Assembly (NCBI GenBank): GCA_025201365.1
Contig: JAIXMF010000214.1
Span: 1-23,241 of the forward strand
Direction of reading: 5' to 3'
DNA from: Syncephalis plumigaleata
Taxonomy: Eukaryota; Zoopagomycota; Zoopagomycetes; Zoopagales; Piptocephalidaceae
Length of the DNA stretch: 23,241 bases
Of this stretch, positions 2 through 23,241 are shown piece after piece. Both the position numbers and the translations under genes were made by a program. Within the stretch, counting starts at the first letter, position 1, and every line of letters starts with the position of its first letter. Under the pieces are notes generated by a model. That model was not told the DNA's origin, did no database searches, and worked only from the letters and a program-made list of their open reading frames with translations.

Positions 2-1024
2 GAGGGTCGACTTATCTTTACCAATTTGAAGAAATCGATTCAATACACCATCACGCACAGTATGCCGGAAGTATTCGCCAGTTTACTTTACATTGTCGTT
101 CCATTACCGCTACCATTGTCGGCCATTCTTATTCTAGTGGTTGATCTCGGTTTCGAAATGTTCATGGCTCTTAGTTTCGCTTGGGAGAAACCGGAGACGA
201 AGCAAGGTCTGATGAAAATGCCACCACGTAAACCGGTAACACCGGCAAGTGTGGAGCGTTTACGTCGTCGTCAAGCACGTCAACTAAAGGGTAGACTTGA
301 CGAGGAATCGGGCGAGATTATTCCACCCACTCGTGCTCAACGCTTCCGTCATTCATGGAGTCAATTCTTCTCGGGTGTCTGGTGGCGTGACCTACGTGAA
401 CCAACAGAGGAACAGGTGCTCGTTGATTTCGGCGTCCTATCATGGGCCTACCTCGAAGTGGGCATCATCGAGACGATCGGTTCATTTGTAGCGTATTTCG
501 TCGCACTTAGCCGACATGGCATTACACCATCCATCGCCAAGGCAGCCGCCAATAGCAACACTGGCAACTACTTTACCAGTATCGCTGATCCATTAGACAT
601 TGGTAATGGCAAGGTGCTCAGTGCCGATGAACAAATGGAGATTCTTGCTCAAGCGCAAACCAGCTACTACATGGCACTGATGATCATGCAGCTGTTCAAT
701 CTATTCGCTTGCAAATGCCGTATCCGCTTGCCATTCGGTCGTTACATGTTCGCTAACCGTGCCTCATTCTACGGTATGTTCGGTGGTATCTTCATCGGTG
801 TATTTGTCAGTTACGTGCCATTCATGAACGTTGCTTTCGGCACCTCCTATAAGACACCGGTCTACTTGCACTTGATTGGCGTGGCATTCGGCGTATTCAT
901 CATCTTCTATGCCACAATGCGTATGATCATCCTTCGTAAGAGTCGACCAATTCGTTGGAATCCCGAGATTTCCGGTTTGCAAATGCATCCTACTGCTTAT
1001 TCAGTGGGTAGTACCAAGAACTAA
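2..1024 (+). CDS. Na+/K+-ATPase alpha-like P-type ATPase, C-terminal part (5' truncated by window)
   Basis: This is the membrane C-terminus (M5 to M10) of a P-type cation pump of the Na,K/H,K-ATPase group. The reading frame is already open at base 2, which gives EGRLIFTNLKKSI, the hallmark just before M5. The TTG at 26 is therefore an internal Leu codon, not a start. About 340 residues follow to the TAA at 1022-1024. The M6 motif reads DLGFEM, so the first ion-site Asp is kept and the second position is Glu where animal pumps have Asp (DLGTDM). The M5 segment has HSMPE in place of the animal SNIPE motif, so the site Glu is kept and the Asn is lost. The cytosolic loop after M6 is expanded with a basic stretch (RLRRRQARQLKGR) and an acidic/proline part. 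Four hydrophobic segments follow. No intron is seen in this part. A polyadenylation-like AATAAA lies at 1230-1235. The family is sure; the transported ion (Na+, K+ or H+) is not. Confidence 0.93.
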   Translation, partial: EGRLIFTNLKKSIQYTITHSMPEVFASLLYIVVPLPLPLSAILILVVDLGFEMFMALSFAWEKPETKQGLMKMPPRKPVTPASVERLRRRQARQLKGRLDEESGEIIPPTRAQRFRHSWSQFFSGVWWRDLREPTEEQVLVDFGVLSWAYLEVGIIETIGSFVAYFVALSRHGITPSIAKAAANSNTGNYFTSIADPLDIGNGKVLSADEQMEILAQAQTSYYMALMIMQLFNLFACKCRIRLPFGRYMFANRASFYGMFGGIFIGVFVSYVPFMNVAFGTSYKTPVYLHLIGVAFGVFIIFYATMRMIILRKSRPIRWNPEISGLQMHPTAYSVGSTKN

Positions 1025-3400: not shown

Positions 3401-4187
3401 TTAGGCTTCCGTACGTGTCTTCCATAGTCCATCGCCTAGACAATGCAAGGTCTCGACACCAATTCCCTTGTTAATCTTTTTAATATCCGTGGTAGACATC
3501 TTCATTCTACCGATGGCTAGCGCGTGTTCTTTGCCTTCTGCCATCACTGCTACTAATGCACCCTCAGGCAGTTCTGTATCCATACGTGCACCGGGTGATG
3601 TCAATCCTGGACACATGATATTGGCACCAGATAGTAAGAATTTAATGGCACCACGATCTACTTGAACAGTTGGAATGAAACCAGGATCTATCACGTAGGA
3701 ATAAACAATCATAAACATACGCGTGGTTATCAGCATGATTCATTCATTTATCTATAGCTAGCTGTTAATTACACTCATGTACTAGACGAAGAGTGGGCGC
3801 GTAGGGACCTTCACGTTGATTGAAAAAGAGAATACGATTATTAAGCGATACCAAATTGATATGTTCATGACTAGGAGAGACAACTATCTCGTTAGAAATA
3901 CAATGGATATATACACGCTGACTAGTTGTATTATAGCACTTTACTGCTTCAAGTAGTACTTACCATTTCATTAGGTACATGCTCGATTTCTTTGGTAGAA
4001 TATCGTCGGCAATCGATTGCAACGGTTCATAGTGGTCGAGTACTTTTTGACGAATGCCACGCTGTACAGACGATTTAACGAGACTACTGCTCGATACATC
4101 CTCTTTTACGCTGAATCTAGTCGTGATTCAGATTAGTATGACTTGTACATGTCAAATAACAGGTAATAGTGCCTACTTTTTAAACAT
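3401..4187 (-). CDS. MCTS1: MCTS1/Tma20 PUA-domain translation re-initiation factor, 4 exons, 182 aa
   Basis: MCTS1/Tma20 pairs with DENR/Tma22 on the 40S subunit to recycle tRNA and mRNA and to support re-initiation. Exons on the minus strand: 4187-4177 (only 11 nt: MFK plus two bases), 4116-3964, 3870-3773, 3687-3401. The sum is 549 nt, i.e. 182 residues, almost the usual family length. The N-terminal domain runs [21 protein letters not shown] through [36 protein letters not shown]. The C-terminal PUA domain has [26 protein letters not shown] and ends in [19 protein letters not shown]. The third intron is needed to join LVHE to YPGF; reading straight through the acceptor gives a false start near 3736. 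The first intron carries TACTAATC 16 nt before its AG. A minus-strand AATAAA is at 3324-3319. Confidence 0.94.
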
Positions 4188-6870: not shown

Positions 6871-7697
6871 TGGATTGACAAACACACATACACGCGTGCG
6901 CATGTTATTGTTGGTAGTTGCAATATTACACTGTCATCATTATGATATGAATTGATTTACATTCAGCTATATTCATATGCATGGCGTTCAATACAATGAC
7001 AATAGCAAGTGTATGATGGATGTAACAGGTGTACGCATCATTATTGATGATGTGTTGATTCAGACAATTGACAAAGCATGCGGTTACACGATATGACAGA
7101 TATTCACCATTCATTCATTCATCGCTAATTGCTATGATGATTAAACAGATGGATAGCTTTCCTTACATTTCCACTTTAATCGACACTCATATGCATCGTG
7201 TGCATCTAAATGGGATTAAACGATATTGACTATCTTGACACTCACCAGTTGCATGCCTAATTAAATAGTAATAGCTCATACGATGTACATTCATGTGGGG
7301 AGAGGAATGCTACGTGATACATTGTAAGCAAAGGCGACAATGCAATCATGCAATAGGTGACCCGAGCGGCTCATGTCGCCGTTTCACTTTGTCTATTCGG
7401 ATTGCATTACCGGCTAACCGAAACATGTTGTCCTCCATCTAATTGGTACTTATTTTCTCCGTATATTATCTACTCCTTGTAGATTGGTAGTTCAGTTATA
7501 CTAATACCTGCTGTTGTTACATGTATACCGGTTGGAATAAACTTGTTCTATCAGTTAGCGAGTGAATCTCCTGTCCGGTACTCACTCCTATGGAATGGTA
7601 CGAATACAGGTTGATTGATACTCGTTAGATAGAACACGACATCCATGATGGTATTGTTGCCGTGTCTTGTCCGATACTCCATCACTATCATCTCGGC
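6871..7697. other. Non-coding stretch upstream of the micro-exon gene; inverted and direct repeats
   Basis: No convincing gene is seen; the short minus-strand frame at 6926-7114 has no recognisable features. Several symmetric elements occur. AATGCAATC (7339-7347) pairs with GATTGCATT (7400-7408). GGCGAC (7333-7338) pairs with GTCGCC (7375-7380). GTTCTATC...AGCGAGT (7545-7563) is an imperfect inverted match to ACTCGTTAGATAGAAC (7620-7635). TGTCCGGTACTC (near 7572) recurs as TGTCCGATACTCC (near 7668). These may be regulatory sites for the downstream gene. Confidence 0.4.
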
Positions 7698-7704
7698 TAT
7701 AAAT
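7698..7704 (+). promoter_or_regulatory. TATA box of the micro-exon gene
   Basis: TATAAAT lies 123 nt upstream of the ATG at 7827. It is followed by a pyrimidine-rich leader with TCTACT repeats (7749-7782), consistent with a transcription start around 7730. The spacing suggests a well-expressed RNA polymerase II gene. Confidence 0.6.
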
Positions 7705-7826
7705 CAAGCACTTTTGACACACTCAACTTGCCATCTTCATACTCGCTCTTCTACTCTACTCTACTACTTTCTACTCTCGTTCTAGTCAACTTATCTATCT
7801 ATCCATCCCACTAGGCCAACATTAAC

Positions 7827-10146
7827 ATGAAGTTCTCTGCCATTATCGCCATTGCCGTCGCCGTTGTCGCTCTCACCAGTCTGGTCGCCGTTGAAGCTAG
7901 TCCCGTCCTGGAACGTCGTGGTATGTCTGGCCATGACCCTATCGATTGATGTACTAATCGTAGTCTATTGTTTCATTGTCCACCGATGATTAATAATAGC
8001 TGGTAAGTTCATGTATATTAAATGGTTGTTTTGACGTGCTAATCACATCGTAATGTTTATTCTACCTATTATGATGCTAACTATAGAGGGTAAGCTAGTT
8101 TATTGGCCATAGCAAGAATTATGCTAATAGTAATATAAATCATGCGTGATTACCATTTCAAGGGCCCGTAAGTTATCATTTTGATTGTAATAAACTAAAT
8201 ACTAACTACAATTTGTCACACAATCGGTATACTTGTCTACCACAGTGCGTAGGTTATCATTGTGATTGTAATCTATGAATGTACTAATCACGCTATGACA
8301 CATGATCCACGTACACTTCTATATGATAGATTGTAAGTCATTATTCTGACCGTAATGAGTGAGATACTAATTACAACGTGGCACATGATTTCACTATGAT
8401 AGAAAGTAAGTTATCATCCTGACTGCAATGAATCGACGTACTAATTTTAGTATGACACATGATCCATGTATGTTCCCGTATGATAGATCGTAAGTTATCA
8501 TTCTAATGATGCTGTACGGTGCACTAACTACAATATGGCACATAATACATATGCTTGTATACGATAGAGCGTAAGTTATCATTTTGGCAGTAACCTATGA
8601 GGTACTAACTACACTATGGCACACATTTCATCTGCGTTTTTGTATAATAGAACGTAAGTTATCATTTCTGATCGTAATCTATGAGGTACTAATCACGCTA
8701 TGACACACGATCCACATACGTTCTTGTATGATAGAGAGTAAGTGATCGCCTTAAACCAACGTACGATGTACTAACTGTAGTATGACACGCGATCCATGCG
8801 TATGTCCCGGTATGACAGTGTGTAAGTTATCATTCCATTTATAAACTATTGTATACTAATGATGATGTGACACTCTATCCATACGTGTATCTGTCTATAA
8901 CAGTGTGTAGGTTACCGTTATGATTGTAATGAATGGATGAGTACTAACTATGATATCGGACATGATCCACCTATGTTCATGTATGATAGTATGTAAGTAA
9001 TCATTCCGCTCATAATACCTGATGTACTACTAACTGCGTTGCACATAATCTATACGTGTTTTCGTATGATAGGAAGTAAGTTACCATTTTTACTGTAAAG
9101 AATGAATGAGTACTAATCACGTTATGGCGCATGATCAACGTATGTTCCTGTATGATAGAACGTAAGTTATCATCTCGATTGTAATCTATAGATGTACTAA
9201 GCATGATATGACACACGATCCACACACGCTCCTGTACGATAGAGTGTAAGTGAATATGGCTGGCTGTAATGTACGACGTACTAATTATGCTATGATATGC
9301 GATTTACACATGTCCCTGTACGATAGGACGTAAGTCATCATTCCGGTTATAACTATGGTATACTAATTACACTATGACACACGATCCACACGTTCCTGTA
9401 TGATAGAAAGTAAGTAATTATTCTGATTGCAACGTATGAAGGTACTAATTATACCATGCCACATGATCCATATATGTTTTTGTATGGCAGCCTGTAAGTG
9501 ATCATTCTGGCTGCAATGAATGGGATGCTGACTACAATACGGCGCATGATCTACCAATGTTTGTGTATGATAGGGAGTAAGTTACCATTACGACCGTAAT
9601 GAATGAATGATGTACTAATCGTAGCGTGATACATGATTTCCTTATGATAGACCGTAAGTTACCATTCTTATTGTAATGAATGGCGTACTAATTATAACGG
9701 GGCGCATGATTCCTTTATATTTTTGTATGAAAGCTTGTAAGTTGACATTTCAATCGTAATGAATAAGTACTAATCGCAGTATTGACACATAATCCACATA
9801 TGTTTCTGTATAACAGTTTGTAAGTAATCATGCTGGCTATAATGAATGATGTACTAATGATAATATGACACATGATTTCCATACATTTATGGATAACAGT
9901 GCGTAAGTTACTATTCTTGATGATAGCGTATAGATGCATTAATGTTAATACGGCGTATGATCTACCAATGTCCATGTATGATAGGATGTAAGTGATCATT
10001 CTAGCTGCAATGAATGGCGTACTAACCACAATACGGCACATTATCTATGTATGTTTGTGTACGATAGGACGTAAGTTATTATTCTGACCGTAATGAACGA
10101 TGTGCTAATTACAATACAATTTACATCACCTGGACGATAGCGATAA
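7827..10146 (+). CDS. Secreted four-cysteine peptide precursor encoded by single-codon micro-exons (28 coding exons, 59 aa)
   Basis: Exon 1 (7827-7920) encodes a signal peptide (MKFSAIIAIAVAVVAL..., cleavage likely after VEA at residue 24), a short propeptide and a Kex2-type Arg30-Arg31, and ends in phase 1. Micro-exons follow: 8000 CTG, 8087 AGG, 8163-8167 GGCCC. Together with the G from exon 1 these make four whole codons. Then come 23 one-codon exons, by first base: 8246 TGC, 8330 ATT, 8403 AAA, 8487 ATC, 8568 AGC, 8651 AAC, 8735 AGA, 8819 TGT, 8904 TGT, 8990 TAT, 9073 GAA, 9159 AAC; next 9243 AGT, 9327 GAC, 9407 AAA, 9491 CCT, 9574 GGA, 9651 ACC, 9734 CTT, 9817 TTT, 9900 TGC, 9985 GAT, 10068 GAC. 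The last exon at 10141 gives CGA then TAA. Cysteines are residues 36, 43, 44 and 56 (C-x6-CC-x11-C). All 27 internal introns are GT-AG, 70-84 nt. I recognise no family; an effector, antimicrobial or signalling peptide is possible. Confidence 0.85.
8163..8167 (+). other. 5-nt phase-converting micro-exon
   Basis: GGCCC lies between the acceptor TTTCAAG and the donor GTAAGTTATC. The preceding exons leave the frame in phase 1; these five bases complete one codon and add another (GGG CCC), putting every later intron in phase 0. It is the only internal exon that is not a multiple of three. Confidence 0.75.
8168..10140 (+). repeat. Tandem array of 24 homologous ~80-nt introns separated by single codons
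   Basis: Each unit begins GTAAGTTATCATT (variants GTAAGTGATC, GTAGGTTAYC), then TGATTGTAATGAATG-like sequence, a TACTAAY branch box, TATGACACATGATCCA-like sequence and TATGTTCCTGTATGATAG. Intron starts: 8168, 8249, 8333, 8406, 8490, 8571, 8654, 8738, 8822, 8907, 8993, 9076, 9162, 9246, 9330, 9410, 9494, 9577, 9654, 9737, 9820, 9903, 9988, 10071. Lengths are 70-83 nt. The three earlier introns (7921, 8003, 8090) have the same signals but are more diverged. The 5' TATCAT and the 3' ATGATA are complementary in many units. Confidence 0.93.
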
Positions 10147-10410
10147 GCGGTAAGTAATAATCCAACAAGTAATCATACCCATACTAATCCAATATGACTA
10201 CAGGACAAGACAAGGACATCATCAAGTAGATATTATAGGTATTCAAGTCAAGAATGTATTGATGCAAGACCCTTTAGTGTCCATGTCATTCAAGTCATTA
10301 TTCCTTGGTACAACAACAAGCATATCTACAAGTCCCTTCCGCCTATTCATCCATGGTCCTATTACATAAATATTAATCATTGATTGAATAAATATGTAAT
10401 GCTATAGGGC
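10147..10410 (+). other. 3' UTR of the micro-exon gene with one more intron and poly(A) signal
   Basis: After the TAA (10144-10146) the last coding exon ends at 10149. It is followed by a further intron 10150-10203 (GTAAGTAATA ... TACTAATCC ... CTACAG), not of the array family. AATAAA at 10387-10392 is a plausible polyadenylation signal, with the mRNA ending near 10410. Confidence 0.55.
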
Positions 10411-11659
10411 ATTCTTCTACTCTATTCACCGTTCGATTGTTTCTTCTACTCCAGCTATGCTTATTACTTATCGTGTGCCATGAATGTGCATTGTATATCG
10501 AGTGAGGTCATCGAATATTGATTACACGAGTGCTATTTCATCACATATGTCAGTATCCTTAGAACTATGCTTCCTACATATTGTCATTACACTTGGATTA
10601 CAACCTGTCATAACTATGTCTAGTGTTGCTGTATTGCTAGGAACAAAGACAACGTCTACGTTCCTATACTTTAATGCTTACATGATACAACAGCATGGAA
10701 TCGAGTGATGACAACAGCGAGCAATGGGAGTGGCGAAAACACGATTCGATACACATACAAGTGATTACGGAGGACGTAGTCAAGTGTGAAAAAGGGAAGA
10801 AAGAGAAAGAGAGGTAATTGCAACGGACACGTATTCTTCAATAGCACATCGTGGCACCATTAACAATTTGATTTTATTAGCCTATACACACATTACATTT
10901 CTGCGGTTGTTAGCCAAATAATCAGGCAAACGAAATAAAGTTGATTAACTAATAACTATTCATAAAGGATATACTCGTCTCATTGCAATAGTTGATGCCT
11001 TTTTAGCACTTATTAATGCTTATAGTGGAAAGTGACGGGTAAGGAAAGAGAGAATAATCGCCGCTTAGACACGTTTAGAATTACCGCTTTTATATAGATA
11101 CTCCACGAACACACGATCATCTTATACGTAATTAGTATTATTTTATTCGTAATTCAGCGCTGACTAAGCTAGTTACCCTAATAACCAGTATCAACGAGTG
11201 TTGAACAAATGCATGTAGATCAAAGGCCGTTGCGTGATCATGTTACACTGAGTAAATGAAAAATCACGTGATGTTAACATTTCGATTTCTAAGCTTCAAT
11301 CGCGATTACTTTAATATAATACCAGGGCTTGTCAGATGACTATTTTGCAATTACCGGATAGCTATAAGAGAGCGTGCTCCTCGGCAGCCTTCTGTGCTGA
11401 CCGAGCTTACTTCCCTTCTTGCATTCATCTTCTTTTACGCTGCCTTCTAGTCGCCACGTCTTGTTGTCGTATCTTCATATGGATACGATCGTTTCAGGGC
11501 TTTGCTGGGCCTTGCAGATGGATGGATGGATGGATGGATGAAATGACACGTCATTATGGACAGGTATTTCTCCACTCCAATTCCCCTCCTTTTGATGCAA
11601 GCCACTGTAAACTATCGTATCTATATGTTGATTACGACAGTTATACAAGACCATGATCA
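10411..11659. other. Long stretch without a recognisable gene
   Basis: I see no protein family, tRNA or rRNA on either strand. Short open frames at 10484-10708 and 11336-11656 (+) have no domain, no supporting splice pattern and ordinary composition. Elements present are an AATAAAG at about 10935 and a TATATAG at about 11092. There is also a six-copy GATG microsatellite at 11517-11540. Confidence 0.5.
11517..11540. repeat. (GATG)6 microsatellite
   Basis: Six perfect tandem copies of the tetranucleotide GATG in non-coding DNA. Confidence 0.9.
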
Positions 11660-12500: not shown

Positions 12501-15246
12501 TTATGCAAACTGGCCTAGTAACTCTGGTGCTTTATCGCTACCATTACCAATGGCATCCATGGCTCGTACTAGATCGTAGTTAATCTCTTGACTAACCACC
12601 GAATCATGCTTATAATCCGGATGATTTTGTACAAATTTACGTATCCATGCGGCTGTTGTCATTAATGTACCTAAACAAATAAATAAATAAATAAATAACC
12701 AAAGATATATATATCTCTATTTATGTACTGCAAGTTCACTTACCATTGGCACGAGCACGTATAAATGCAAGATAACGAGAAAGATAACAGCCCGTCTCGA
12801 CATCCATATTAATCGAATTTAAATAGGAATGAATAATTGGAATCAATCCAGGGAATGAGCCCTCCTATAGAATGTCATTCATCGTGATAAGTGGATGTGA
12901 AATCATAGAAGATGCCGTATACAACTAGCTCACCTTTTGTCCATTAATGATCTCATCGATAGACATGAGCTCGTACTCATCCTCCACCGGTCCCCATGGT
13001 ATATCATCGGTGCCCATGACTTGTTTGCGGAAGTAGAATTTCTCATTGAGTACCGCTCCTCGATGATGTGCTCGTTTCATATTCTCATCCACCTAGTTGT
13101 AATAGCAGCTTAGTATCTCTATGATGTGTACACATTAGTAGTCCATGTCAATGTATTCACCTTAGACATGGGAATGTAAAAGTTAAGATTAAAGCTAAGC
13201 ATGGCTCGTGTTAATAATACGACAAAGATGGCGAATGCTGCATTCTCAAAGTCTGTCAGTTGTATCTCCATCGATCGGAATTCAACTCGCCAACCGATAT
13301 CCGCATTGGGTGGTGGTGGTTTGAATCGCATTGTTTGCCAGTTGGTCGATTGAATATTCTATGAATCGTGTATGGCTGGTTAGTATAGAGTGACTACACT
13401 CACTCTACTCGTGTATTAACTATACAATGAATGTACCTCAAAATGATCAGATGATTTGCTGTTGTCTTGCTCGACGAGTTCACGATAAATGACAAGTGGA
13501 TCACGTATAAATAAATGGGCAACATGACGTGCAAGTCGTTCATCCACATCTACATGATCATTATTATTAGTATTGTTGTTGTTGTTGTTGTTGTATTAGC
13601 ATCTCATTAATAATCTACTAATCATCAACACTCACCATTATCCATCAACTGCTGACATATATCTTTATCGTAGACTAGATCAATGTCATTATATTCAGGA
13701 CGTAGTTGTTTATCCGTTGATATATAACAATCAATCGAGTCATAGCGTGACTTATTAATAACGAAACGATCATGCTCCAATGGCTATTCATAGGGTAGAT
13801 ATAGTTATATTAGTGCTGTATTGTTTCCATTAACTATTGTGATATATCTACCTTAATACCGCGTTCCTCATCGGTACGATCATCTACACTCTGAGCAATG
13901 ACACTCCATCGACAATCGACATCGGCCAGGTAACCACGGAAGATGGGGGCAGCTGCCGTCAATGCCAACTATAGACAACGGAACATTCAGTATGCACATC
14001 CATAAATATCCATACTCCATTCACTTACCATAATGGGTCCAACCGGTGCCAATTGATCATAGAGACGACGTGCCTCCACGATATTACACGCTTGAAAGGT
14101 GATTTGCAAGCATGAACAACCCATGCCAAATACCATAGCATCCATGTAGATGTGATCGGGTAGAGCGGCACCTTGAGCTGCTTCTTCATCCTCGGCAAAC
14201 AGATTACGATGTACAGGAATGGTGGGATCGTGGAATGGACGCGGTGTATTTACATCGTGGAATATAGGCATATTAATGGCTACCTTGGATCCACGTCGTC
14301 TTCGAATGTTTGCCGTTAATGTACTGGATATGAGATAGGGTTAGCGCGACATACACCTCGTGACATCATAATGACACTTACGGAAATCGAGCATGTGGGT
14401 TGATAGCCTCATCCGGTACAAATAGACTATGACTGGACTGGCCTTCAGGTTCGGAATGAGGATCGAGAAACACGCCCGGTGCACCTAATCGTGGAAAACT
14501 AGTCATTGAAATGATAGTCTCGTTGGGTTTCAAGTATTCTCGTACAAGTGAACGTCTAATAATAATGATAATGATGAAGATAATAGTAAAGCATTAGAAT
14601 ATGTATTACTATGTAGTGTAGTCATTATTGTTTCTACATTACCTTAATTTCATATTGAGTTCAACATTGAGTAATGAATTAAGATCGCCATTATAGGGCA
14701 CACCCGGTGTACCTAATGATTACATAAATGTTCATCATGGTTAGTCAAATAGCTAGAGACTATCACTCGCTATTCAATCATTGTAGTAACATACCCTCCA
14801 ACATGAATCGACCATATTCAGGTCGCCAGGCAGTTTTAACCTTTGCCATCTTCCTAGTAGACACGCGATAGAACTATTAAATCCACTGAATGATATTGCT
14901 GATAATGCTATTAGTACTTACTCGGGATCACCTTGAGCCTCTTTCTCCTCCTTCTCCAACTCGGCTAGTATTTCAAACACGCGTAGCGATAGACGTGCAT
15001 TGTGCTGTTCGTCATCATACGATATTACCATATACTCAACCTGACAAGCATAGGTTAACAATGTACGGTATGGAATACACAGTACACGCTGCTTACCTCG
15101 TCTCCCCAACGTAAACGGTCGTGCTGTCGCTCCTTGACTCGGTGGTATATGCTAAGAAACTGTTCAATACCATTTTGACGTACATGATTCGCGTATTGCT
15201 TTGCCTCCTTCCAGTGTAATGGTGTACCCAAGGATAGTAGACCCAT
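12501..15246 (-). CDS. GCLC: Glutamate-cysteine ligase catalytic subunit, 13 exons, 630 aa
   Basis: The enzyme performs the ATP-dependent first step of glutathione synthesis, joining the gamma-carboxyl of glutamate to cysteine, in the cytosol. Minus-strand exons: 15246-15097, 15040-14922, 14853-14795, 14712-14643, 14555-14382, 14323-14029, 13968-13852, 13783-13636, 13549-13437, 13358-13161, 13092-12934, 12864-12744, 12670-12501. They sum to 1,893 nt, in frame throughout. Family blocks include [75 protein letters not shown] with [16 protein letters not shown], and [20 protein letters not shown] followed by [21 protein letters not shown]. This is the eukaryotic GSH1/GCLC type, of ordinary length. 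The ATG at 15246 is the start: the frame stays open upstream but has no ATG and is low complexity. Two introns carry microsatellites. Confidence 0.95.
12677..12698. repeat. (AAAT)n microsatellite in a GCL intron
   Basis: About five tandem AAAT/AAAC-type units in the last GCL intron, next to its acceptor on the minus strand. Confidence 0.8.
13573..13594. repeat. (TTG)7 microsatellite in a GCL intron
   Basis: Tandem TTG trinucleotides within the intron between the eighth and ninth GCL exons. Confidence 0.85.
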
Positions 15247-15853: not shown

Positions 15854-17459
15854 TTATTGAGGAATCAATGCTTGGAATATCTTCCATATGGCGTGTATTG
15901 CATCGTCAATATGCTCTACTTGCGTGTCTCGTCCTGTACTGAATCTAATAGAAAGACGTCCAATAGATTCAGGTACTTGCATGGCACGTAAAACTCCCGA
16001 GATACTAGTAATAAATTGATTAATGAATAACAATTCTATTGTACCAGTTGAACAATTCATCCATGATCTTTTGTTGACTTACTTGTTACTACTGGATCCC
16101 GAATGACATGCTGAACCTGCACTCACATAAATGTTCTCCTGTGCCAGCCTAGTCACTAGATCGTTTGACGATGGCCATTCAACTTTTTGTTTAGTTGTTG
16201 TTGCCGCTGTTGTATCCATCGGCACAATAGAGAAATACGTTGTATTTGACACGCGGTTGGTCTCCTCGCCATGTATAAGCACCTGGCAATGAGGCGGCGC
16301 TCGTAGACGTAGATTCGTTTCAAATAATTGTTGTAGCATTCGCATATGATGTACCGTTGATTCAAGCAACTCTTGTGCCATGAAACATGCCTATTATTAT
16401 TATCACGTAATTAGTGATCCTAGTCTACCATGTCTATTCAATCTCACACCTTGCCTAGACCGGCTAACATGGCTGTATTCTCCGTGCTATTCCAGTGTAT
16501 TAATAACGATGATGATGATTCAATGATATTCGTATATAATTTACCCTGCTCTAAGTCCACGCTCCTGTCCTCCACCTAGGAATATCGGCACTAATGGTGT
16601 TTGCCTCGTAGCAAGTCCACGTACATAGAGTGCACCCACACGTGGACCATAAAACTATAGCGAGATTAGTTGTAATGATTCATTACCCATGATTCATTAC
16701 TATTATGATTACCTTATGTCCAGCAATAGTAAGATAATCAGCATCAAGCTGGTTCACCTGTACACGTAGTTTACCAATCGCTTGAGCTGCATCAACATGA
16801 ACGTAAATACGCGATAGCGAACGTGTCACTTCATATTGACGTAGCGTCTTAGTCAACTGAGCAATATCCATGATGACACCCGCCTCATTCTGCACCAGCA
16901 TTACCGATACTAATCGTGTATTTGGTGTGATCAACGCGAGTGTGCCCTCTATGTCAAGTTGACCCGATGACTGAAGTGGTGCATAGGATACTTGTAGCTT
17001 GCCGTTGTCGCTATAAGCTTGCGCGGGTGCTTGTACTGAAGGATGTTCCGCCGCAGATATTACTACATGACTATCATGAAATGTCTGGATTATCGAGTGC
17101 AATACCGTATGATTTGACTCGGTGCCACCCGATGTAAATAGAATATCTATCGATTGTTACATGAATATTAAACTGCTGAACAGTGAGCATACGCGTATAT
17201 ACTATCATGGCAATACCTTGTTCTGGTGCATCAATTACTGCAGCCACTTGTTGACGTGCTTGTTCAATTACTTGTTTTGCTTTACGGCCTTTATATCATT
17301 CCTGTTAATATAACCACGCTATTATTCTTAATATATGTCATTACCAGCTGGTGAAGCAGAACTAGGATTGGCCCATGCTTCGTTTAGAGTCTCCGTGATA
17401 GTACGAACTACTTGTAAATCAACCGGTGTGGTTGCATTATAGTCAAAGTAAAGAGACAT
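15854..17459 (-). CDS. Class V aminotransferase-fold cysteine desulfurase / selenocysteine lyase-like enzyme, 7 exons, 408 aa
   Basis: A PLP enzyme that removes S or Se from cysteine or selenocysteine. Minus-strand exons: 17459-17345, 17288-17217, 17146-16713, 16654-16545, 16486-16450, 16390-16083, 16004-15854. The sum is 1,227 nt, intact. Landmarks: [14 protein letters not shown] at the start, [44 protein letters not shown], and the PLP-lysine in [19 protein letters not shown]. Next is [18 protein letters not shown], then the catalytic-loop cysteine in SAGSACHSG and [11 protein letters not shown] near the end. It resembles animal-type SCLY more than mitochondrial NFS1: no presequence is visible and the second exon block starts at the substrate fold. 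The exact substrate cannot be read from sequence. It is divergent with GCP5 across 444 bp. Confidence 0.9.
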
Positions 17460-21780: not shown

Positions 21781-23241
21781 ATGGCTGAACACCCAACACT
21801 TGCCTCTCTATTGAACCGTCTAGAGTTGGCCACGGAACGACTGGAGGACTTATCGCTCTCGGGTAACTTGAATGGCAGTGCAGGTGGTGCTGGACGTGCA
21901 GTCGGACGTTCTATCAAGAAGAACGCGGATGCCGTTCAAGCTACCGTGCCCGCATCAGTCGAGAGTTACGATGAGATTATCAATGGCTCGCTTAAAACGT
22001 ACCTAGAGCAATCTGAGGAAATTGGCGTTTTAGTCAAGGAACAGGTACGATAACCGCTATTACCCGTCTATTAGTACTAATGACATAGTATATAAATATA
22101 TGTATATAGAGTCTAGCGGTACAGCGTTTATTCCAAATTCAACGTCAATTTATTCTTATAGCGTCGCAGTCGAAGAAGCCCGACTTTGAATCGGCAACGT
22201 TCACCGAGTTGATCACCCTACTCAGCAAGCGATGAACACCATTTGTGCTTATCGCAACGAAACCGAGGATCTCCCTTCTTCAACCATTTGTCTACGGTTA
22301 GTGAGGGTATCTCGGCATTAGGCTGGATCACCGTGGTAAGTGGCATCATCATTGTCATCATTTAATGTGGAATAAAAAGTGTCACTACTAACAAGTAATG
22401 TAAATGTAGGAACCTGCACCGCACCTTATGTCGGTGAAATGAAAGATAGCGCTCATTTCTACGCTAATCGTGTATTAAAAGACTACAAGGAAGAGTGAGT
22501 ATACATATGTATGTGTATATATATACAGAACTAATAATGGCAAATAGCGATCCAAAACACGTGAAATGGTCCAATGCATTCATGGCCATTCTCGAGGAAT
22601 TACAAAACTACGTAAAGGTCTACCATACGACTGGTCTAGTATGGAATCCCAATGGTAAAGATGCACAGGAAGTTGCCGGTAAGTCAATTGGAATAAACGC
22701 GACTATCACTGTCGGCTAAGTCAGCTGCGCGTGTATGTTCACTAGCTTCATTGGTGGATCTCCAAGTAGCTCGGCTAAACGTACTCGTCCACCGTGCCAC
22801 CTCGTCATGATCGTGCTCAATCGCAGCTGGTGAATCAGCTAGCGGTAATCAGGATACAGCAGCATCAGCAGCAACAGGAACACCACCAAGTAGGGCAGCC
22901 CTATTTAGTGCTATTAATTCGGGTGAAGGTATTACCTCCGGTTTACGTAAAGTGAACAAATCCGATATGACCCACAAGAATCCAGAACTACGCGGTTCAA
23001 GTGTGGTACCAGCATCACCCGCTGCCAGTAAGTAGAATTGTCACATTATCTAATAGTATTTAGCAATTAGTAACAATTTATGATAATAGCATCTTCGACA
23101 CCATCTACTACACAGCAGAAACGATCACCACGTACCGTACTTGAAGGCAAGAAATGGATTGTTGTAAGTAATTGATGATGACTAAAGTGTAATCATGTAT
23201 ATAACATGTAATCATCAATCATCATTATTATTACGTAGGAA
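21781..23241 (+). CDS. Cyclase-associated protein (CAP/Srv2), 3' truncated by window, with apparent 1-nt deletions
   Basis: CAP recycles cofilin-bound actin monomers and, in fungi, binds adenylyl cyclase through its N-terminal coiled coil. Exons: 21781-22044 (LASLLNRLELATERLEDL and VESYDEIINGSLKTYLE), 22110-22335, 22410-22494, 22548-22678, one from about 22720 to 23027, 23090-23163, and the first codon of the next at 23239. The helical domain reads SLAVQRLFQIQRQFILIA, then FFNHLSTVSEGISALGWITV, and DDPKHVKWSNAFMAIL. The proline-poor linker is followed by the actin/WH2-side block LFSAINSGEGITSGLRKV with THKNPELR. The final KKWIV begins the beta-sheet CARP domain. The frame is lost at about 22216 (CCC), 22273 (CCC) and 22417-22424. 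Adding one base at each restores it, and exon 2 then becomes whole codons. A further slip is likely near 22780-22850. Strong protein conservation argues for base-call errors over decay. Confidence 0.82.

Follow-up and report, generated by a model that had tools for sequence, protein, structure and literature searches.

The 23,241-nucleotide (nt) window analyzed here, i.e. positions 1 to 23,241 of contig JAIXMF010000214.1 in the assembly GCA_025201365.1 of Syncephalis plumigaleata (Zoopagomycota, Zoopagales according to the NCBI taxonomy), contains between positions 7827 and 10149 a protein gene whose mature peptide is very probably encoded one codon per exon. A preliminary description of this DNA had proposed 23 consecutive 3-nt exons, and exactly this chain was recovered by a splice-chain search, in which exon 1 was given as the start, donors, branch points and acceptors were scored, all exon lengths up to 60 nt were weighted equally and the reading frame was ignored. 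The resulting exons of 94, 3, 3, 5, 23 times 3 and 9 nt combine into a coding sequence of 59 codons and a stop (180 nt), and the 59-amino acid (aa) product exhibits a hydrophobic leader together with the expected Arg-Arg pair (residues 30 and 31) and four cysteines, arranged as C..CC..C. Of the signal peptide claimed earlier, a conserved hydrophobic 31-aa leader stands, its signal-like character being judged by hydropathy alone. The claimed run of units with a GTAAGT donor and a TACTAAY branch box stands as well, but not for each unit: among the 27 introns upstream of the stop exon, GTAAGT starts 23 and TACTAAY is present in 20. Positions 7000 to 11500 hold 25 units of the form AG-NNN-GTRRG, with a longest properly spaced run of 23, as opposed to a mean of 0.43 units (maximum 4, longest run at most 1) in 500 order-1 Markov resamples of the same region. 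The last intron lies within the 3' untranslated region (UTR); the splice-chain program favored an acceptor at 10238 for it, and the shorter intron listed in Table 1 was adopted from the comparison with intronless paralogs. Table 1 includes also the neighboring genes; in the window, ARAGORN found no transfer RNA and Rfam gave no match at gathering scores.

Table 1. Features of the micro-exon gene and its neighbors (positions in the window)
Feature	Position	Strand	Basis or remark
TATA box, TATAAA	7698..7703	+	
Exon 1, 94 nt, hydrophobic leader and pro-region ending in Arg-Arg, phase-1 end	7827..7920	+	150 scored genome matches
Exon 2, CTG, split codons, phase 1	8000..8002	+	splice-chain model
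Exon 3, AGG, split codons, phase 1	8087..8089	+	9 nt long in many paralogs
Exon 4, GGCCC, 5 nt, shifts frame to phase 0	8163..8167	+	splice-chain model
Single-codon exon TGC (Cys)	8246..8248	+	splice-chain model
Single-codon exon ATT (Ile)	8330..8332	+	splice-chain model
Single-codon exon AAA (Lys)	8403..8405	+	splice-chain model
Single-codon exon ATC (Ile)	8487..8489	+	splice-chain model
Single-codon exon AGC (Ser)	8568..8570	+	splice-chain model
Single-codon exon AAC (Asn)	8651..8653	+	splice-chain model
Single-codon exon AGA (Arg)	8735..8737	+	splice-chain model
Single-codon exon TGT (Cys)	8819..8821	+	splice-chain model
Single-codon exon TGT (Cys)	8904..8906	+	splice-chain model
Single-codon exon TAT (Tyr)	8990..8992	+	splice-chain model
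Single-codon exon GAA (Glu)	9073..9075	+	splice-chain model
Single-codon exon AAC (Asn)	9159..9161	+	splice-chain model
Single-codon exon AGT (Ser)	9243..9245	+	splice-chain model
Single-codon exon GAC (Asp)	9327..9329	+	splice-chain model
Single-codon exon AAA (Lys)	9407..9409	+	splice-chain model
Single-codon exon CCT (Pro)	9491..9493	+	splice-chain model
Single-codon exon GGA (Gly)	9574..9576	+	splice-chain model
Single-codon exon ACC (Thr)	9651..9653	+	splice-chain model
Single-codon exon CTT (Leu)	9734..9736	+	splice-chain model
Single-codon exon TTT (Phe)	9817..9819	+	splice-chain model
Single-codon exon TGC (Cys)	9900..9902	+	splice-chain model
Single-codon exon GAT (Asp)	9985..9987	+	splice-chain model
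Single-codon exon GAC (Asp)	10068..10070	+	splice-chain model
Terminal coding exon CGA-TAA-GCG, CGATAAGCG, holds the stop	10141..10149	+	splice-chain model; xxxTAAGC[GA] end in many paralogs
Last intron, 54 nt, within 3' UTR, ends GACTACAG	10150..10203	+	comparison with intronless paralogs
3' UTR, AATAAA at 10387-10392	10204..10392	+	UTR start common to the paralogs shown
Cation-ATPase C-terminus	26-1024	+	ordinary gene
PUA domain	3401-3736	-	ordinary gene
Glutamate-cysteine ligase	13987-14271	-	ordinary gene
Class-V aminotransferase	16683-17102	-	ordinary gene
CAP N-terminal motif	21781-22053	+	ordinary gene

The suggestion that a fungus harbors so extreme a micro-exon gene is supported and extends to a family, as judged from genome-wide counts in the 32.6-Mb assembly (383 contigs, designated G000). 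Scored matches to the exon-1 peptide number 150 among 169 candidates, duplicate haplotypes counted, and TATAAA or TATATA occurs within 165 nt upstream of exon 1 in 20 of the 22 family members examined. Seven pairs of loci proved on inspection to consist of nearly the same sequence on different contigs (from 91% up to complete identity) and are probably haplotypes, so that the number of distinct genes must lie below 150; our guess is about 100. All 20 10-kb loci picked by a unit pattern contain an array of 6 or more units. Genome-wide there are 120 matches to AGNNNGTAAGTTATCATTNTGA and none in the backward control, and 907 to TAGNNNGTAAGTTA vs. 85 in the backward-read control, whereas the unit pattern with a 4-nt spacer (39 vs. 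92) or a 6-nt spacer (68 vs. 111) is rarer than in the control, 29 of the 68 matches to the latter coming from a single locus with two-codon exons and a nearly identical copy of it. In L019 and L034 (contigs C58 and C223, minus strand), 30-odd single-codon exons are followed by a series of 6-nt, two-codon exons. When the distance of YAG ahead of a GTRRGT donor was tabulated for the window and loci L009-L028 (21 loci), 3 nt was found 521 times and each other distance from 0 to 30 between 3 and 37 times. Plain splice-chain runs missed units with GTAGGT or GC donors; in later models GC donors were permitted and the frame was imposed. In 25 such models 653 of the 738 micro-exons are 3 nt long, and the longest, L040 and L041, comprise 47 three-nt exons with 45 successive whole codons. 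The 5-nt exon ahead of the array is present in 13 of 20 models built without the frame.

The introns of these genes vary very little in sequence or in length (mode 80, most of them 77-84 nt), with the donor GTAAGTTAT and the acceptor TATGATAG, and exhibit U2-type features, i.e. GT-AG (or GC-AG) ends, a TACTAAY branch and an AG-poor stretch before the acceptor. The CTAA of the branch box is placed 46 nt from the intron end in 226 of 418 introns, and GC donors account for 5 of 653 counted units. G is the last exonic base in only 79 of 560 units, thus the exon contributes little to the splice site. From the branch point to the acceptor AG was observed 122 times vs. 1038 expected, and no AG follows the branch in 474 of the 586 introns (709 in total) with CTAA 30-60 nt from the end; upstream of the branch AG is also rare, less strongly (358 per 16,218 positions). 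In the micro-exons of the 25 models, the ratio AAA:AAG is 42:5 and CAA:CAG 21:0, as compared to 11:34 and 22:8 in two host open reading frames (ORFs), a shortage that would be expected if AAG or CAG beside a donor could serve as an acceptor. The depletion of AG and the avoidance of AAG and CAG are apparent marks of selection on the introns for correct splicing. A candidate stem, in which TATCAT close to the donor would pair with ATGATA at the opposite intron end, the acceptor, was rejected, its covariation across the 709 introns being unconvincing (best z 4.2, scattered over unrelated pairs). Introns 1-3 are matched position by position across genes (nearest neighbors 24/24, 24/26 and 19/25, respectively). 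The array introns are mixed, the nearest neighbor coming from the same gene in 146 of 789 cases (4.4% expected), and this pattern suggests an exchange of units within and between genes.

Five members of the family are intronless and combine the leader with an uninterrupted frame, namely L017-1634 (112 aa, minus strand), L042, L046, L047 and L049, the frame of L047 continuing into the 3' sequence. Three of them come from five loci chosen for long open frames, the other two of which, L048 and L050, are micro-exon genes. All five carry the start of the 3' UTR, i.e. the sequence 3' of the last intron, without that intron. In L042 the junction matches on both sides (TAAGTG and then AACAAGACAAG, corresponding to TAAGC[GA], intron and RRCAAGAC in the micro-exon genes), and in the other four it is comparable on the 3' side only. 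L049 has CTCCTCAAGAAGAAG uninterrupted, which equals exons 2 and 3 of the micro-exon gene L026, and L017-1634, the sole intronless member whose upstream region was compared, retains the family promoter. The intronless members would fit either a loss of introns via complementary DNA or an older continuous state, the direction being undecided.

Could the arrays instead be colonies of introner-like elements inserted into continuous exons, with the triplets as remnants or as 3-base pair (bp) target duplications? The great uniformity of the introns would agree with such an origin, as would the leader and the 3' UTR start shared by the intronless members and the promoter kept in the one compared. 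We nevertheless consider it unlikely: 120 of the 141 exact GTAAGTTATCATTNTGA sites genome-wide are preceded by AGNNN, so that such introns are apparently not widespread elsewhere, adjacent triplets are mostly unlike, contrary to target duplications, and the first three introns are common to the genes position by position. Besides, this explanation concerns the origin of the arrays, and the working of the present gene is unchanged by it.

Nine pairs of related loci were also compared, of which six are near-identical copies, one involves the third copy of a locus and two are paralog pairs. Clearly matched flanks were found for 268 of the 270 aligned triplets, those of phase-1 exons included. Ten of the 268 triplets differ, always non-synonymously, and in 6 of these the change affects two or three bases; these are few cases, and some of them adjoin diverged flanks or the edge of a deletion. 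Across the nine pairs the flanks differ at 3.1% and the triplet bases at 2.1% of positions. L018 is without 12 whole units of L027.

Stop codons were counted in 26 sequences (the window, L009-L028, L038, L040, L043, L044 and L045), near-identical copies left out. The 29 arrays of at least 6 units comprise 712 triplets, with 2 stops vs. 22.6 expected from base composition by position, and both stops belong to a single array of 28 triplets on the minus strand of L020. This array, the second one of L020 (~31-2545), is by eye open only in phase 1, with codons split between exons.

A word-based protein search with the window product, which misses remote homologs, identified 9 deposited records, 8 of them named S. 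plumigaleata. Among the 120 hits shown for a search with HSP60, this species is absent, and the best named hit has 81% identity. Two of the deposited models, both from the same genome, use long series of the single codons: 36 successive residues of P0209 match single-codon units of L044 in order over ~3.1 kb, with 2 units skipped, and 31 successive residues of P0212 match units of L041 in order over ~2.7 kb, likewise with 2 skipped (scores 34.8 and 29.8, respectively, vs. 5.4 and 5.2 for the best of 500 shuffled tails). Alignment of P0212 to the L041 model lengthens the match, with additional skips, and past the leader only GRKFMYINY of this protein is readable from contiguous DNA of its own locus. 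P0210 matches in 7 residues, with 1 skipped, and then reads into intron sequence, the leader of P0214 fits L009 with the triplet chain absent, and P0215 was matched by eye with the intronless L046.

These records bear on another explanation, according to which splicing links exon 1 directly with the last exon, or the array stays in the transcript or is processed in some other manner, and the triplets are untranslated decoys that slow or regulate splicing. Exons of 3 nt should indeed challenge any spliceosome, and P0210, with its few triplets, and P0214, with none, are what such decoys might lead to. The scarcity of stops in the triplets, the frame-setting 5-nt exon in the majority of the frame-free models, the long ordered series of triplets in P0209 and P0212 and the C..CC..C layout that recurs among the products make this explanation very improbable. 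A non-coding minisatellite of ~84 bp with an accidental likeness to splice sites can practically be dismissed, despite the 84-bp array reported by Tandem Repeats Finder, as the bases at exon positions vary and avoid stops, AG is purged most where splicing requires it, and many separate arrays are enclosed by a conserved promoter, leader and 3' UTR start.

The one-codon-per-exon gene structure that we favor is read from genomic DNA and deposited records, and several points weigh against it. Without an imposed frame, 10 of 20 models are open from the leader to the terminal stop micro-exon (11 of 20 with GC donors), and the remaining ones break, partly at least via weak sites. With the frame imposed most models yield complete products, which does not constitute independent evidence; at low penalties some models extended into the 3' sequence, the ends of L020, L023, L024, L026, L028, L038 and L044 are imperfect, and L016, the 5' end of L009 and the ends of L038 and L039 are badly modelled. 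GAG is not avoided in the micro-exons (20, with GAA 16), and their codon choice departs from the two host ORFs in further ways. In the unit-by-unit alignment of copies, which replaced a whole-locus alignment in which L020/L033 had been misaligned, codons differ at 2.5% and introns at 3.4% of sites (Fisher p=0.23), a non-significant difference that gives no clear sign of purifying selection on the codons. The other 6 of the 9 deposited records exhibited no triplet chain in any locus compared (best score 3.4); the own loci of several chain-less records are probably outside the compared set. The deposited models leave out some codons and run into intron sequence. Transcript support behind them is likely; as far as is known, ab-initio gene programs hardly ever predict 3-nt exons.

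Among the products of 25 listed models (near-identical copies and L016 left out), a CC pair is present in 11, all of which exhibit the C..CC..C layout if the alternative models of L020 and L024 are used, and other products have a high content of Pro, Glu/Arg or Gly/His. Pfam assigned no family to the window product, P0209 or P0212, and no match to the window product was found among solved structures. The effector-type role put forward in the preliminary description is still a conjecture, favored by the hydrophobicity of the leader and by the cysteines alone.

The anatomy of the gene, its family, the avoidance of stops and the signatures of selection at splice sites are what the DNA itself displays; the mechanism we propose goes further. 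Transcription would start from the TATA promoter, exon 1 would supply the conserved leader, and the 5-nt exon would bring the frame into register, each later exon of 3 nt then spelling one whole codon, up to the small stop exon. The codon units lie between stereotyped introns of ~80 nt with a strong GTAAG donor, TACTAAY, ~45 nt of AG-poor sequence and the TATGATAG acceptor. Because a 3-nt exon should not fit both splice-site complexes at once, the spliceosome would presumably define introns rather than exons, and their stepwise removal would add one codon at a time to a growing exon. The leader and pro-region would then be translated, and cleavage by a Kex2-like protease after Arg-Arg may release a small, often disulfide-containing peptide for secretion. 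Syncephalis is a parasite of other fungi, and the peptide might play a role towards the host fungus. Recombination could gain or lose whole codons in frame, because the introns are alike across genes, and the conserved leader would thereby drive fast-changing peptides.

More tentatively, the units may be regarded as codon cassettes, i.e. one codon per splice unit between interchangeable introns, on which recombination or conversion as well as skipping of 3-nt exons work by single amino acids and in frame. This is a possibility that we hold with some doubt; hints of it are the 12-unit difference between L018 and L027, the multi-base changes of triplets and the single-codon skips in deposited models. 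If the one-codon-per-exon structure is true, these genes represent the limiting case of split genes, in which the exon equals the codon dozens of times running and in a large family. They make it testable how the spliceosome joins 3-nt exons in order and with few errors where exon definition is supposedly impossible, they constitute a class of genes easily overlooked by standard annotation and by standard mapping of RNA sequencing reads, and they hint at an evolution of peptides in steps of whole codons. Should the products, in addition, prove to be secreted and to affect the host fungus, a repertoire of effectors would be hidden within intron-like DNA.

No account of such genes in Syncephalis was found in the open PubMed Central (PMC) literature, bioRxiv and subscription papers being outside the scope; the gene was called undescribed at the outset, which agrees with the open PMC papers and beyond that coverage stays a presumption. 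The SP7-like effectors of arbuscular mycorrhizal fungi form a family confined to Glomeromycotina; they are secreted, carry hydrophilic tandem repeats and have an intron that is conserved, and single-codon exons are unmentioned in the part of the source drawn upon (PMC11333574). In plants, according to the portion of PMC8831610 considered, splicing can include exons down to 1 nt, annotation often overlooks them, and intronless copies are attributed to reverse-transcriptase-mediated intron loss; the plant microexons are isolated and occur in conserved genes, whereas in Syncephalis entire coding regions are divided into codons. The bicycle genes of aphids, in the sections of PMC9168663 used here, are fast-evolving putative effectors recognized mainly by many small exons of the same phase, with ~17 exons on average and internal exons almost all in phase 2; the array exons of Syncephalis are, unlike these, whole codons in phase 0, and belong to another kingdom. 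The micro-exon genes (MEGs) of schistosomes, as far as described in the corresponding part of PMC10526429, form families encoding secreted proteins, in which the signal peptide is conserved and the remainder varies, and possess many tiny exons, mostly multiples of three. A gene has 10-20 of these exons, most of them of 15 bp within a range of 6-81 bp (the abstract gives 3-81); the introns measure 0.1-5 kb, and the genes number 35. Like the MEGs, the Syncephalis genes keep most of their coding sequence in micro-exons that are multiples of three (653/738 being 3 nt), and the hydrophobic leader, judged by hydropathy, may take the place of the MEG signal peptide. Unlike the MEGs, their exons equal one codon, up to 45 running in the models, their introns are ~80 nt long (mode 80), they occur in a fungus, and the family counts 150 scored exon-1 matches as opposed to 35 genes; this separation refers to gene structure. 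The Syncephalis family probably works like the MEGs and the bicycle genes, in that many small exons serve variable secreted proteins, and it is classed with neither of them, given the differences in lineage, in phase and in the sizes of exons and introns.

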